DNA of 64,000 nucleotides from a virus. The first letter of the stretch is position 1, and each line of letters opens with the position of its first letter. Positions 12,126-64,000 of the stretch are shown here, piece by piece. Location: IMG/VR virus record IMGVR_UViG_3300030329_002114, positions 24,987 to 88,986 of that record; one strand, 5' to 3'. The position numbers were made by a program, and so were the translations under genes. The notes under the pieces were generated by a model. That model worked only from the letters and a program-made list of their open reading frames with translations. It did no database searches and had not been told where the DNA came from.

Positions 12126-12538
12126 TGAGTGATAAAAAAAATGCAGAAAAAAAAGTATGGTGGATTCATAACAATAAAAGTATAGGACTCGCTCAAAGAA
12201 CTGAAAATACTGATGGTTCAAAGTATTCTGCTATAGCATCATCTGACGTTGGTAAGTATGCGTACATCCAAGCGATTGTAATGGATGAGGGATTTGGAAA
12301 AGTAGATACACCTGATGGTTCAATAGGTATGTTAGAATCTCCAAATATACCCGAGGAATTCCACGAAGCTTTAACCTATTATGTTATTGCCAAGGGGTAT
12401 GAAAAAACACCTGAAGGAAAGGGCTTAAATCAAGCTATGTACTTTAGAAGGCTTTATAAAGAATTGGTTAACGAAGCTAAGAAAAATTCAAACAGAGAAA
12501 AATCGGGTGTTTACTCGGTGAAAGGGTATGATTTTTAA
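12125..12538 (+). CDS. Head-tail junction hypothetical protein (module A), 137 aa
   Basis: Coupled to both neighbours by TAATG overlaps. It shares KKVWW near the N-terminus and ESPxIPxEFHxAL in the middle with the 131-aa protein at 58629. The C-terminus is helical and basic. Probably part of the connector/neck set; exact role unknown. Confidence 0.6.
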   Translation: MSDKKNAEKKVWWIHNNKSIGLAQRTENTDGSKYSAIASSDVGKYAYIQAIVMDEGFGKVDTPDGSIGMLESPNIPEEFHEALTYYVIAKGYEKTPEGKGLNQAMYFRRLYKELVNEAKKNSNREKSGVYSVKGYDF

Positions 12539-13263
12539 TGTCGTATTCACTTTCAATAAGTTTTAAAACTGGAATAGAAGATTTAATAGGAGCTGTTGGT
12601 GATGATGATTTAATAACTCAAGCTATTAGACAAGCTGGTGCTGATGTAATTAATGCTATGCCACATCAGTCATTAGCTAGATACACTAGAACAGCAGCAA
12701 TTACTACAGGGTCAGATGGAATTAGTATTAGAGATTACCACGTAATTTCTGTTGATAAAGACAATCATCAAGCAAAACAAATTCCCGTATCTGATAAAGC
12801 AAAATACAACGATGTAAATTCTATATACGGGGCAGTTAACACTGATCCTGTGTACTACATAAAAAATGAAACTTTGTATGTTATAGGAAATGCGGGGTCA
12901 AGTGAAACAACTGCAAATGTAAACTACATACCTATTATGCCAGTATCGGATGTTAGTATGAATACATCTTTAGAACACGGTTCTACTCAAGATTTCAATT
13001 TTCCGCAAGAATGCGATCATTTATTAATAATAGGTGGTGCTATGTACTGTTTAAATAGGTTGATTTCAGATGCAGTTACTCAAATGAAAACTTATGTCAA
13101 TACAGATGAAGATGTTGAACTGGCAAATGCTCAACAAGGAATTATTGACAGATATACTGCTTTAAAGCAGTCTTTAACTCAAGATTATAATTTAAAATTA
13201 CAAATATTTTTAAACCAAGACACCCATGAGAGGAGTCAAGCTCGGGAAGGTGTCGTAGCTTAG
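12538..13263 (+). CDS. Tail/neck structural protein (module A), 241 aa
   Basis: The N-terminus (FKTGIEDLIGAVGDDDLI) matches the 354-aa module B protein at 59290, and both contain TDPVYYI and STxEDVELA-type segments. The A form lacks the Pro-rich linker and the long Gln/Asn/Ala coiled coil found in B. Its last codons overlap the covarying hairpin at 13219-13254. Confidence 0.65.
   Translation: MSYSLSISFKTGIEDLIGAVGDDDLITQAIRQAGADVINAMPHQSLARYTRTAAITTGSDGISIRDYHVISVDKDNHQAKQIPVSDKAKYNDVNSIYGAVNTDPVYYIKNETLYVIGNAGSSETTANVNYIPIMPVSDVSMNTSLEHGSTQDFNFPQECDHLLIIGGAMYCLNRLISDAVTQMKTYVNTDEDVELANAQQGIIDRYTALKQSLTQDYNLKLQIFLNQDTHERSQAREGVVA
13219..13254 (+). ncRNA. Conserved RNA hairpin with compensatory changes (A)
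   Basis: Stem GACACC/GGTGTC (13219-13224, 13249-13254) encloses a 24-nt loop of nearly fixed sequence with an inner GAG/CTC helix. The counterpart at 60855-60888 keeps loop length and sequence but changes the stem to ATGCC/GGCAT. Here the element lies inside coding sequence; in B it is intergenic. Both sit just before AGGAGAAACAAGATGG, the start of the next gene, so translational control or RNA processing is plausible. Confidence 0.75.
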
Positions 13264-13273
13264 GAGAAACAAG

Positions 13274-13684: not shown

Positions 13685-15442
13685 ATGGCAACTTTAACAG
13701 GTAAAAAAGTAAGCGAGAGTTACAAAGACTTACTACAAGTTTCAAATTCAAATAGTGGTGTAGATGCTACACTCAGAACAGTAGAAGATGGCGAAGGAAC
13801 TTCTGCTGGTGTCCAGTTATCAACAACGGATACAAGTTTTAATGGTAATCATATTTTAAACGAGCAAGGCAGACAAAATCATGTAGTAAGTACAATGCCC
13901 TCTCCATATTATCATTTTGATGGCACAAATGATTATATAAGTCTAGCAGATGATGACAGACTTTCCTTCAGTCCAAAATTAAGCATTTCTATCTGGTTTA
14001 AATGCAAAGAAAGTACAATTAGTGGTGGTGAGGTTTTAATTAATAAATATAACGGAACTGGTAGTAATCGAGAATATACATTATATTTTGGTACAGACGA
14101 AAAATTAAATATTGGTATTAGTCCAACTGGTGGAGATGATGCTGTTGGAAGAGCAACTCCAGTACTTTCTAATTTAGACAAATGGAATCACGCTGTAGTT
14201 GTTTGGGATAGCGATTATTCAACTGGAACAATAAAGATATACATAAATGGTATTGACCAAGGAACATTAACTGGTTCAGGCACTATTCCTACAGTTATGG
14301 CTAATAAAACTTCTATTCTTACTATTGGGGCTAATGCTTCTGGTGCTGATAACTTTACTGGTGATATTGGACAAGTACAATTATGGAATATAGCACTTAG
14401 TGCATCTCAAGTTAAAGATTTGTATTCTGGAAAAAGCGTAGAGTACAAATATCAAGGTTCGCCCAATACAGAACTTATTACAAATGGCACAATGGAAGCC
14501 GACAGTAACTGGGCAGATAGAGGCTCTGTTACAACTAGTCGTTCATCAGAACAAGCAAAAACTGGAACATACTCTCGAAAAGTCGTTGCATCTGGCAGTG
14601 CTAGTGGTTGGGGGATAGACTCAGATACTTTTACTACAGTTGCTGGTAAGCAATATAGATTATCTCTTTGGGTTTATCCAGACGATTCTACTCATATGAG
14701 GATTTTATTACACGATGGTGGTGGTGGTGTTATTTACAGTAATGATGGCACAGGAATACTTGATAATTTAACACAAGACGCTTGGAATCATATTGAATAT
14801 GACTTTGTTTCGGTAACTGGTGGCTCATCAGCACAGGTTAAATTAATGTATAAAGATGGCGAGGATGGCACTATATACTTTGATGATGTTTCTGTAAAGC
14901 AACTAGGCTGTACTCTAGAATTAGATGGTTCAGGTGTTGCATCTGATAAATGGTTAGATAAATCAGGAAACGATTTACATGGAACTCTTGGAGATGGAAG
15001 TGATGCTACAAAAAATCCAGCTTTAGCTAATGCCCCTTCAGGTGATGATGGTTTAGTTTATGAAGAAGGCGATTTTACTCCTGCAATAAAATTTGGCAGT
15101 GGCACAACTGGGATTACATACCATGCAAATACAGTTGGTAAATACTACAGAATTGGAAATACAGTTTTTATTACTGCAAATATTAAACTAACCAGCAAAG
15201 GTTCTTCTAGTGGTAATGCAAGAGTAACTGGGTTGCCTTATTCAGTCAATAGTGGGGCTGAACTCTCTGGGTTTGTTATGCCATATTGGACATTTACAAG
15301 TGGAAGTCATACAGGATTACAGGGGTCTGGTACTGAAATCGCTCTTTATGATAAAGCAGATGCTGGGTCAGTTGATTATATCACTGATGGAGATTTTGCA
15401 GATACTACAGAGTTTGGATTTTCAGGAACTTTCAATATATAA
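13685..15442 (+). CDS. Tail fibre/receptor-binding protein with LamG-like domain (module A), 585 aa
   Basis: The N-terminal 50 residues resemble the N-terminus of the 431-aa module B fibre at 61424, so this is probably the virion attachment end. Residues about 75-255 match a concanavalin/LamG-like jelly roll (YHFDGTNDYISL to the WNIALS segment). Residues about 265-405 look like a carbohydrate-binding beta sandwich, and the C-terminus (about 455-585) is a fibre tip domain. Expected to bind host surface glycans. Confidence 0.75.
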   Translation: MATLTGKKVSESYKDLLQVSNSNSGVDATLRTVEDGEGTSAGVQLSTTDTSFNGNHILNEQGRQNHVVSTMPSPYYHFDGTNDYISLADDDRLSFSPKLSISIWFKCKESTISGGEVLINKYNGTGSNREYTLYFGTDEKLNIGISPTGGDDAVGRATPVLSNLDKWNHAVVVWDSDYSTGTIKIYINGIDQGTLTGSGTIPTVMANKTSILTIGANASGADNFTGDIGQVQLWNIALSASQVKDLYSGKSVEYKYQGSPNTELITNGTMEADSNWADRGSVTTSRSSEQAKTGTYSRKVVASGSASGWGIDSDTFTTVAGKQYRLSLWVYPDDSTHMRILLHDGGGGVIYSNDGTGILDNLTQDAWNHIEYDFVSVTGGSSAQVKLMYKDGEDGTIYFDDVSVKQLGCTLELDGSGVASDKWLDKSGNDLHGTLGDGSDATKNPALANAPSGDDGLVYEEGDFTPAIKFGSGTTGITYHANTVGKYYRIGNTVFITANIKLTSKGSSSGNARVTGLPYSVNSGAELSGFVMPYWTFTSGSHTGLQGSGTEIALYDKADAGSVDYITDGDFADTTEFGFSGTFNI

Positions 15443-15853: not shown

Positions 15854-16146
15854 TGACTAATAAGTCCTTGAATAATAAGAGCCTAATTAAGAAAGTTCAA
15901 ATAAGTTTAGGTATTTATATCTCTTCAATCCTCGTGCTTTTAATAATTGCATATGGAATGGGTTGCAGGGATACTTATATAGCTGGATATTCTTTAAACC
16001 CAGATACGACAACACATAATTCAACTATCTTTAATGAAATTGTTGATGCTGATAGCTCTGTTCATTGGTATGTGAAGTTGTACGATGGTGAGTTATGGTG
16101 CTACTTCCACAATCGCTATGAAATGGTAAAACGTGTCAGAAGATAG
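15853..16146 (+). CDS. Membrane-anchored hypothetical protein (module A), 97 aa
   Basis: One N-terminal hydrophobic segment (about residues 16-36) ends at a cysteine (AYGMGC), an imperfect lipobox. The soluble remainder contains DGELWCYFHNRYEMV. The module B protein at 63225 is strongly similar, especially beyond the Cys. Possibly a lipoprotein of the lysis or superinfection-exclusion type; not assignable. Confidence 0.6.
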   Translation: MTNKSLNNKSLIKKVQISLGIYISSILVLLIIAYGMGCRDTYIAGYSLNPDTTTHNSTIFNEIVDADSSVHWYVKLYDGELWCYFHNRYEMVKRVRR

Positions 16147-16225
16147 CGAAATACATTTTTGGATAGGCGTAACTGGATTTATTTGGGTCTTTATATTGAT
16201 TGTTAGATGGCTAATAGGTCTGTAG
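16133..16225 (+). CDS. Tiny transmembrane peptide, 30 aa (module A)
   Basis: GTG start inside the end of the previous gene, stop inside the next gene. One membrane helix (FWIGVTGFIWVFILIVRWL). The B copy at 63490-63582 has the same length, the same GTG start and a very similar sequence, which argues for a real gene. Possibly a holin-like or regulatory peptide. Confidence 0.6.
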   Translation: MSEDSEIHFWIGVTGFIWVFILIVRWLIGL

Positions 16226-16545
16226 ATGGAAAACCTAAAACCGCTAGAAGTATACGAGGCGATGTCATTGATGACAATCTCGCCCTCAATATTAATATTA
16301 AGTGGTTGGGTCAGCTTTTGGTGCTTGTTGGCGGACTTTTTTATGGAGCTTGGCGTATTGAAAATCGTATCACAGTACTGGAACAAAGGATGGCTGAAGC
16401 TAATGAACAAATATCCGAGCTTGTTTCAAAACATATATCTGAAGAACGTATTAGATATGAAAAGATGGAGGAAGAACTTCAATGGTATCAAAAAGAGCTC
16501 AACCTAAATCCCCTAAGTTGGCGAAAAAAGAAAAAAAGAAAGTAA
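16207..16545 (+). CDS. Membrane protein with cytoplasmic/periplasmic coiled coil (module A), 112 aa
   Basis: A membrane helix near residues 32-50 is followed by a coiled coil (about 52-98) and a very basic tail (RKKKKRK). The sequence is almost the same as the B copy at 63564 (conserved KTARSIRGDVIDDNLAL). The architecture would suit a holin or spanin-like lysis component. It overlaps the 30-aa peptide upstream and the 41-aa gene downstream. Confidence 0.65.
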   Translation: MANRSVDGKPKTARSIRGDVIDDNLALNINIKWLGQLLVLVGGLFYGAWRIENRITVLEQRMAEANEQISELVSKHISEERIRYEKMEEELQWYQKELNLNPLSWRKKKKRK

Positions 16546-16607
16546 TTGGGTTTATGGAAGTTTGTGCAAAGGTAGAGTCTATAATAAGAGGCAATGGAAA
16601 TAATTAA
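16482..16607 (+). CDS. Small basic protein, 41 aa, nested overlap (module A)
   Basis: The ATG at 16482 follows GGAGGAAG and lies inside the 112-aa gene in another frame; the stop overlaps the next ATG (TAATG). The C-terminal 22 residues (FMEVCAKVESIIRGNGNN) are identical in the B copy at 63839. Function unknown. Confidence 0.6.
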   Translation: MVSKRAQPKSPKLAKKEKKKVIGFMEVCAKVESIIRGNGNN

Positions 16608-16927
16608 TGGAAGAATTTTTAGCATTATACTCCGAAGCAGGAATGATCGGTGTTGTAGGGGCAATGTTTGTCTTTATGGTATATCAAAATGCTAAAAGAG
16701 CAGAACAGCAAGGTGAAGCTATACAAGAATTAAAAATAGAAAATAAAGGTCAGTCTGAGACTTTAGAAAACTTAGAAAGCATTGTATTAAAAATGTTAGA
16801 TAGGTGGAACAAGTCTGATGAAACATCTTTAAGGCATCGAGAAGATATAACTAAAGAATTAAATGAGCTGTCAGATAAAGTTTCTTATATGTCTGGTAGA
16901 ATTAATGGAGGCAATAGCAATAGATAA
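16607..16927 (+). CDS. Holin-like membrane protein (module A), 106 aa
   Basis: One membrane helix near residues 11-28 (GMIGVVGAMFVFMVYQ), then a long coiled coil to the C-terminus. Small one-helix proteins with this plan next to lytic enzymes are often holins of the BhlA/UviB type; the assignment here is by architecture and context. The same start is seen at 63973 in module B. Confidence 0.55.
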   Translation: MEEFLALYSEAGMIGVVGAMFVFMVYQNAKRAEQQGEAIQELKIENKGQSETLENLESIVLKMLDRWNKSDETSLRHREDITKELNELSDKVSYMSGRINGGNSNR

Positions 16928-60356: not shown

Positions 60357-60827
60357 ATGGCAGATAAAGCAACATCAAATCTAACAGCATCTATTTTTAT
60401 GGATGATATAAAATCATCTTTAAGGGGTTCTTCTAGTTACACACCAGTATCAGGAGACGATGATGCTTGGATGTTTGCAGAAGTTGCAGTGACTCATAGT
60501 GGAACTAATATACTTGATACATCTGATTCTTATTTAGGTTCAGCATCTGCAGTATCTCTTTCTGATAAAGTAAAATGGGTAGCAATAAAGAATATATCCA
60601 CTACATCAACAGAAGGAATAGGCATATCACTTACTGGTGATGCTGCTTATAATACAAATACCACCATGATACTTGGAAACGGTGAAATGTTAGTGATTAA
60701 AGCACCTAATCTTACAGTAGAAGGACTACATGGAAAATCTTGTACACTAGATGCCGATGGCAAACCTAGCGCTCAAGGCACAGCTACAGTAAGTATTCAG
60801 GTAGCAGCTATACTAGAAGATGTTTAA
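60357..60827 (+). CDS. Virion-like beta protein, 156 aa (module B only)
   Basis: Thr/Ser/Val/Gly-rich and beta-like (NISTTSTEGIGISLTGDA), typical of fibre or decoration proteins. It lies between the 354-aa gene and the conserved hairpin, a place where module A has no gene, so it was gained in B or lost from A. Confidence 0.55.
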   Translation: MADKATSNLTASIFMDDIKSSLRGSSSYTPVSGDDDAWMFAEVAVTHSGTNILDTSDSYLGSASAVSLSDKVKWVAIKNISTTSTEGIGISLTGDAAYNTNTTMILGNGEMLVIKAPNLTVEGLHGKSCTLDADGKPSAQGTATVSIQVAAILEDV

Positions 60828-60854
60828 TATAGATAAATAATTTAATTAACCAAG

Positions 60855-60888
60855 ATGCCCATGAGAATAGTCAAGCTCGGTAAGGCAT
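60855..60888 (+). ncRNA. Conserved RNA hairpin with compensatory changes (B)
   Basis: ATGCC/GGCAT stem around the same 24-nt loop as at 13219-13254. Lies in a 77-nt intergenic gap, followed by GGAGAAACAAGATGG. Because translation differs between the two places, the conservation points to RNA function. Confidence 0.75.
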
Positions 60889-60904
60889 AGAAAGGAGAAA
60901 CAAG

Positions 60905-63235: not shown

Positions 63236-63503
63236 ATTTTTAGTTAAAAAAATAAAAATAAGTTTAAGCATATACATAGTTTCAATTTTAACTCTATGTG
63301 TATTTGCTTTTAGTATGGGATGTAGGGGTTCTTACATATCAGGCTATTCATTAGATCCTGATACTACAAATCATAATTCAACAATCTTTAATGAGATAAT
63401 AGATTCTGATAGTTCTCTACATTGGTATGTAAAATTATACGATGGTGAATTATGGTGCTATTATCACAATCGATATGAAATGGTAAGTCGTGTACGAAGA
63501 TAA
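63225..63503 (+). CDS. Membrane-anchored hypothetical protein (module B), 92 aa
   Basis: TTG start inside the end of the previous gene. Hydrophobic N-terminus ending at Cys (FAFSMGC), then GYSLDPDTTNHNSTIFNEI and DGELWCYYHNRYEMV, nearly the same as the 97-aa protein at 15853. Possibly a lipoprotein. Confidence 0.6.
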   Translation: MKNKFLVKKIKISLSIYIVSILTLCVFAFSMGCRGSYISGYSLDPDTTNHNSTIFNEIIDSDSSLHWYVKLYDGELWCYYHNRYEMVSRVRR

Positions 63504-63582
63504 AGAAATATATTTTTGGTTAGGTGTGACTGGATTCATTTGGATGTTTATATTGGTAGTTAGATGGCTAATGGGTCTATAG
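63490..63582 (+). CDS. Tiny transmembrane peptide, 30 aa (module B)
   Basis: GTG start. Same length as 16133-16225 and similar (FWLGVTGFIWMFILVVRWL). Overlaps genes on both sides. Confidence 0.6.
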   Translation: MYEDKEIYFWLGVTGFIWMFILVVRWLMGL

Positions 63583-63911
63583 ATGGAAAGCCTAAAACCG
63601 CTAGAAGCATACGAGGCGATGTCATTGATGACAATCTCGCCCTCTCTATTAATATTAAGTGGTTGGGTCAGCTTTTGGTACTTGTTGGTGGACTTGTATA
63701 CGCAGCTTGGCGTGTCGAAAATCGTATCACAGTACTGGAACAAAGGATGGCTGAAGCTAATGATCAAATATCCGAACTTGTTTCAAAACATATATCTGAA
63801 GAACGTGTTAGATATGAAAAAATGGAAGAGGAGTTACAATGGTATCAAAAGGAACTAGGCTTAAACCTAAATCCGTTAAGCTGGAAACGAAAAAAGAAAA
63901 AATCAAAGTAA
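63564..63911 (+). CDS. Membrane protein with coiled coil (module B), 115 aa
   Basis: Nearly identical to the 112-aa protein at 16207, with three extra residues before the basic tail. Membrane helix at about 32-50, coiled coil to about 98. Holin/spanin-like architecture. Confidence 0.65.
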   Translation: MANGSIDGKPKTARSIRGDVIDDNLALSINIKWLGQLLVLVGGLVYAAWRVENRITVLEQRMAEANDQISELVSKHISEERVRYEKMEEELQWYQKELGLNLNPLSWKRKKKKSK

Positions 63912-63973
63912 TTGGATTTATGGAAGTTTGTGCAAAGGTAGAGTCTATAATAAGAGGCAATGGAAATAATTAA
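63839..63973 (+). CDS. Small basic protein, 44 aa, nested overlap (module B)
   Basis: Starts inside the 115-aa gene in another frame. The C-terminal 22 residues are identical to those of the 41-aa protein at 16482, while the basic N-terminal half differs. Stop overlaps the next ATG. Confidence 0.6.
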   Translation: MVSKGTRLKPKSVKLETKKEKIKVIGFMEVCAKVESIIRGNGNN

Positions 63974-64000
63974 TGGAAGAATTTTTAGCATTATACTCCG
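63973..64000 (+). CDS. Holin-like membrane protein, N-terminal fragment (module B)
   Basis: The first nine codons (MEEFLALYS) are identical to the start of the 106-aa gene at 16607; the rest lies beyond the window. Confidence 0.6.

Follow-up and report, generated by a model that had tools for sequence, protein, structure and literature searches.

M1, a structured RNA with covarying stems before a small virion-protein gene of uncultured, mostly marine phages

The window analysed here is a stretch of 64,000 nucleotides (nt), positions 24,987-88,986 of the IMG/VR record IMGVR_UViG_3300030329_002114, and it contains two copies of an RNA element, M1, each standing before a gene for a putative small virion protein. 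M1 is a structured RNA whose base pairs have been kept through two-sided changes, and it is most likely a cis-acting element in the leader of a small virion (head-spike base) gene. A preliminary description of the window had read copies A (13219-13254) and B (60855-60888) as one RNA hairpin with compensatory stem changes, and this reading is strongly supported: both hairpins are present in the sequence, three positions separate their nearly fixed 24-nt loops, and the two stem pairs that changed did so with compensation (C-G to U-A and A-U to G-C). What had been described as a loop is itself structured, and the plan of M1 comprises an outer stem P1 (5-6 bp), an internal loop CA/GnAA, an inner stem P2 (UGAG/CUCG) and a near-fixed apical loop of 10 nt. 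Both copies stand before the same ribosome binding site, AGGAGAAACAAGATGGCT. Copy A lies within the last codons of a 241-aa open reading frame (ORF), for which Pfam gives a ring-protein match below threshold and nothing else, and copy B comes after the stop codon of an inserted 156-aa ORF; protein coding, as had been argued, is not the reason for the conservation, the element being kept outside any gene and its short internal frame being broken. No third copy was found in the window at up to three mismatches (0 expected by chance).

Covariation and structure of M1

A covariance model and covariation in homologues had been proposed as the check on the hairpin, and both bear it out. In alignment A4, whose 49 distinct sequences underlie all stem counts, 392 of 392 P1 cells are paired (100%), and double-change cells number 25 against 5.1 in shuffles, with none of 500 shuffles as high. 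Double changes occur at four of the five P1 pairs, the paired fraction falls to 14-34% in slid controls, and the stem is found as ATGCC/GGCAT, ATACC/GGTAT, ACACC/GGTGT, ATATC/GATAT, GTATC/GATAC, GTACC/GGTAC, ATGAC/GTCAT, ATAAC/GTTAT and GCACC/GGTGC; roughly two thirds of the sequences add a sixth outer pair. Four G-U cells, which read from the opposite strand would be A-C, show the plus-strand RNA to be the selected molecule. Change events were separated from inheritance with trees of the proteins encoded downstream (type 1 behind copy A, type 2 behind copy B). In the type-2 tree pair 3 changes seven times, pair 4 six times and pair 1 twice, on both sides and always coupled, and the type-1 tree adds a few more coupled P1 changes. 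With so few supported pairs, no single sign test falls below 0.05 (best p 0.0625), but no independent pair is opposed. Copy A matches the R1 covariance model with 59.6 bits (E 3.6e-15) and copy B with 71.0 bits (E 1.1e-18), scores that are partly by construction since R1 was built from the M1 family itself.

RNAalifold places the UGAG/CUCG stem inside the 24-nt loop, where it is invariant in A4; compensated versions of P2 were identified as UGUG/CACG in a sister lineage, the loci L451 and L453 (capsid-protein relatives), and as UGUC/GGCG in the paralogue M1b described below, with CA/GnAA kept. When 2.95 Mb were scanned for the core plan, the M1, M1b and L451 set came back together with one spurious site, and 4 Mb of first-order random sequence gave no match, a comparison that speaks against a chance origin of the core. 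P1 is predicted to be stable (mean pair probability 0.87), the single-sequence folding energy is uninformative (z ~0), and the bases are conserved beyond the needs of pairing, as for a recognition surface.

A scan of IMG/VR for the exact loop pattern, with the stem not required, gave 71 loci, in 67 of which a matching stem encloses the loop, with a Shine-Dalgarno (SD) sequence and a start codon after it, and the M1 count in IMG/VR is at least 67 contigs. The remaining four viral matches (L003, L005, L007 and L012) have no stem and the wrong context and were set aside as chance, as were nine exact-pattern matches in prokaryotic genomes (no stem, other context); M1 has no match in the cultured-phage collection. 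Because these search patterns fixed most of the loop, its invariance in the IMG/VR sample is partly by construction; the protein-based and capsid-based samples are the unbiased ones, and they show the loop variants CCCAAG, GACAAG, GTCACG and GCCAAG and spacers of 2-4 nt.

Gene linkage and relatives of M1

Nearly all distinct loci have P1 ending 0-9 nt from the SD and 12-20 nt from the AUG, so that M1 lies, like the translational operators of phages, at or just upstream of the ribosome binding site. M1 is present in 60 of the 61 loci found via the type-1 protein, the exception (L110) having in the same slot a second class of element, M3; among 40 capsid-protein relatives with enough downstream sequence, 30 carry M1 and one (L404) M3. 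Single-copy in most phages, M1 stands before three downstream domain families that share just about 12 N-terminal residues (arm K-Y-S-V-x-E), and in L276 M1 and its gene lie beside terminase, not tail genes. That M1 is kept across swapped C-terminal domains and the move in L276 means that it belongs to the 5' end of the gene.

The type-1 gene of phage A, the phage carrying copy A, is a predicted head-spike base of the RcGTA type on both sequence profile and fold: it matches PHROG 12296 (E 7.6e-15), PDB profiles of RcGTA Rcc01079 (E 4.6e-5) and the Carin1 spike base (E 1.3e-4), and, with its predicted fold in Foldseek, the same two spike bases (E 2.2e-4 and 6.6e-4). For the type-2 protein of phage B, PDB gives no sequence match and the fold search nothing significant, and from its position and N-terminus we infer that it is probably a spike base as well. 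The N-terminus of the RcGTA base protein docks on the capsid, and the protein carries one head fibre (PMC7296036); such docking would account for an N-terminal arm that stays constant while the C-terminal domains are exchanged.

M1b stands in front of the next (fibre-like) gene, some 530-560 nt 3' of M1, in L031 (5932-5976), L002 (11979-12023), L241, L246, L259, L283, L313 and L314. It surfaced below the R1 threshold, has the same CA/GnAA core and fold plan with a covarying outer stem of 7-8 bp, and is seen exclusively in M1-carrying phages, where sequence covers that stretch. M3 (plan P1-AUUCAC-P2-UUA-P1) occurs in L110 and several type-2 relatives; the named loci are L216, L323, L404, L110 and L335, and a scan gave 107 contigs. 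The genes behind M3 encode a [KH][YFL][ST]VxE-like N-terminal arm with many unrelated C-terminal parts, and its P2 covaries strongly (GCAC/GUGC, GGAC/GUCC, GGAU/AUCC, GCAU/AUGC, GCUC/GAGC). M3 resembles M1 in slot, gene type, similar upstream AAC(C)AA and covarying stems, but differs in its internal loop and shorter apical loop and shows no detectable homology to it; it has no match in Rfam or in the cultured-phage collection, and M1 and M3 never occurred together in the phages checked. Most M1 and M3 members have a short A-rich lead, AAC(C)AA, ahead of P1, whereas the sequence further upstream is unrelated. In L349 and L430, relatives in the spike gene family, long perfect hairpins replace M1 and M3 (GGCTAGGGAAGG...CTTTCCCTAGCC; GGGGGAGTTTCGGCTCCCCC).

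The phages that carry M1 are tailed, uncultured and mostly marine. The record itself (88,986 bases) consists of two related yet distinct phage genomes joined head to tail, either as an assembly chimera or as a true joint molecule; the capsid proteins of phages A and B are 62% identical and their helicases 29%, and both have a P22-type portal and SU10-type capsid proteins. Window positions 15958-16634 and 63315-64000 are 87% identical, compared with about 75% or unalignable sequence elsewhere, and here a small membrane-protein-like gene (16207-16545 / 63564-63911) appears to have been exchanged recently. Coordinates of the features in the window are collected in Table 1.

Table 1. Features at the two M1 copies (window coordinates)
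Feature	Position	Strand	Basis
M1 copy A (AACCAA lead + P1-internal loop-P2-loop)	13213..13255	+	R1 covariance-model match
P1 5' strand, copy A (GACACC)	13219..13224	+	sequence, covariation
24-nt loop, copy A	13225..13248	+	sequence
P1 3' strand, copy A (GGTGTC)	13249..13254	+	sequence, covariation
Internal loop 5' side, copy A (CA), invariant core	13225..13226	+	
P2 5' strand, copy A (UGAG)	13227..13230	+	
P2 3' strand, copy A (CUCG)	13241..13244	+	
Internal loop 3' side, copy A (GnAA, here GGAA), invariant core	13245..13248	+	
SD AGGAG of spike-base gene, 7 nt past sixth P1 pair	13262..13266	+	sequence
Upstream 241-aa ORF, 3' end reads through copy A	12538..13263	+	open reading frame
Predicted 91-aa head-spike base protein (type 1), phage A	13274..13549	+	PHROG 12296, profile, fold
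Likely spike/fibre gene, phage A (LamG lectin domain); N-terminus resembles genes behind M1b	13685..15442	+	Pfam Laminin_G_3 E 6e-27
M1 copy B	60848..60890	+	R1 match
P1 5' strand, copy B (ATGCC)	60855..60859	+	sequence
P1 3' strand, copy B (GGCAT)	60884..60888	+	sequence
P2 5' strand, copy B (UGAG)	60862..60865	+	sequence
P2 3' strand, copy B (CUCG)	60876..60879	+	sequence
SD AGGAG, copy B	60893..60897	+	sequence
156-aa ORF inserted between upstream gene and copy B	60357..60827	+	open reading frame
122-aa small structural protein (type 2), phage B	60905..61273	+	N-terminal KYSVxE anchor
Likely spike/fibre gene, phage B	61424..62719	+	N-terminus MAALGSQTIAQSYEQLL as in genes behind M1b

Proposed function and rival explanations

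Three functions had been suggested at the outset, and among them a protein-bound operator fits best, a site of processing or stability comes second, and a ribozyme is without positive evidence. On the strength of the sequence comparisons we tentatively propose that M1 may be bound by a trans factor that would control how the spike-base gene is translated or what becomes of its mRNA. The factor, a phage or host RNA-binding protein or putatively the ribosome itself, would recognise the internal and apical loops, and its binding might raise or repress spike-base translation at 30S loading; M1 would end where the initiating ribosome sits, leaving the SD unhidden by base pairing, and the M1b core before the next gene would place two spike genes under the same factor. 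Several points weigh against this proposal. Pfam identified no RNA-binding repressor among 40 window proteins, many small ORFs being unannotated, and 9 of the 40 capsid-protein relatives have neither M1 nor M3 in the sequence covered. Self-repression by the spike base does not sit easily with the protein's swapped C-terminal domain and non-basic N-terminus. The same data would, moreover, also fit mRNA stabilisation or processing.

The main rival is that M1 serves mRNA processing or stability, as a cleavage site of an endonuclease from host or phage or as a cap-like 5' hairpin shielding the processed spike mRNA, so that spike proteins would be made in an amount differing from their operon neighbours. 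The mid-operon position between late genes, with the hairpin directly before the SD, and the predicted stability of P1 agree with such a role, and the filling of the same slot by M3 or by a plain perfect hairpin (L349, L430) suits a structural one; however, loops as invariant as the internal and apical ones are not required of a protective hairpin, RNase III would need a longer stem than this, and we regard this explanation as possible but rather doubtful.

A further reading, which we consider unlikely, is an assembly sensor, in which the free spike base would bind M1 (or M3) via its arm [KH][YFW][ST]VxE and thereby halt its own translation. If this were true, the arm would otherwise dock on capsid vertices, empty vertices would meter spike synthesis, and two unrelated RNA folds would have evolved for one protein arm. 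Quite improbable, too, is a riboswitch-like aptamer whose conserved loops would bind a metabolite signalling the state of infection. The compact, highly conserved core just 5' of the SD would suit one, M3, structurally unrelated but placed before the same gene type, might be another aptamer, and the riboswitch-like motifs manA and wcaG, structured RNAs that comparative genomics revealed in the leaders of marine phage genes (PMC2864571), set a precedent. Yet those motifs precede metabolic genes and their Rfam models have no gathering-score match to M1, whose downstream genes encode virion parts, and M1 has no expression platform, neither anti-SD pairing nor a terminator.

Very little speaks for a self-cleaving ribozyme trimming the spike mRNA. 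The short conserved core is of catalytic size and closed by a freely varying stem, and theta ribozymes are known in phages (PMC10879173); but no Rfam ribozyme matches at gathering score, nor do two instances match one with the limit relaxed to E 5-10, and the apical loop is variable in both length and sequence, CA/GnAA and the flanking pairs being the invariant part. As improbable is an element acting on RNA polymerase in antitermination or termination control (put/nut-like), which a structured RNA inside a long late operon and tied to one gene might suggest, since M1 lies against the SD and not at the operon start, is without a U-tract and is single-copy in most phages. A conserved DNA joint for recombination swapping spike genes, with no RNA role, would fit the constancy of the element and N-terminal coding part while C-terminal domains swap, but it is hardly credible, as it would not keep pairing while sequence changes; covariation argues strongly against it, and the G-U pairs favour plus-strand RNA.

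Other identities were considered and rejected. Rfam gave no match at gathering threshold in the whole window, and a cut-off relaxed to E 5-10, applied around copy A and L103, yielded none or chance matches. A leader peptide or attenuator was rejected, the mini-ORF MRxVKLGK... (ATG-AGA-nnn-GTC-AAG-CTC-GGn-AAG) being broken by 4-nt spacers (L102, L103), a 1-nt deletion (L137) and a codon-3 stop (L013); its stop is absent in L063 and L118, and its wobble positions are largely fixed. An intrinsic terminator was dismissed, as the loci inspected show an A-rich spacer and the SD after M1, not a U-tract. Sequestration of the SD found no support (mean unpaired probability 0.71 with M1 and 0.64 with M1 shuffled), nor did a pseudoknot of the upstream ACC with the loop GGn, in which, as read from A4, the variable n does not track its partner. 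Resemblances to K-turn, hammerhead and twister-sister were weighed and are without Rfam support.

Comparison with known systems and significance

The gene 43 hairpin and gene 32 pseudoknot of T4 are translational operators of a phage (PMC3014915). M1 is like them a structure in leader RNA just 5' of the ribosome binding site, with conserved loop bases and a changeable stem; unlike them it is without a known repressor, stands before a gene for a capsid spike protein whose domains are swapped, has a core (P1, CA/GnAA, P2) unrelated in sequence, and has a paralogue before a second gene. Autoregulatory leaders of ribosomal-protein genes, such as the S15/rpsO operator, adjoin the 30S site and need not hide the SD. 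M1 likewise adjoins the 30S binding site without hiding the SD, but it has no Rfam gathering-score match and no ribosomal-protein gene, and no mimicry of ribosomal RNA was identified. To our knowledge, structured control RNAs have rarely been described in late genes of DNA phages, and none linked to a capsid spike was found in Rfam and the literature searched.

Together, M1 and M3 represent well over a hundred uncultured phage contigs, and they look like a common, overlooked means by which these viruses set how much of a variable host-contact protein is made. The core of M1, being small and sharply defined, lends itself to direct testing, and the combination of one leader and one N-terminal arm with many C-terminal domains marks a natural point for the swapping of spike modules.
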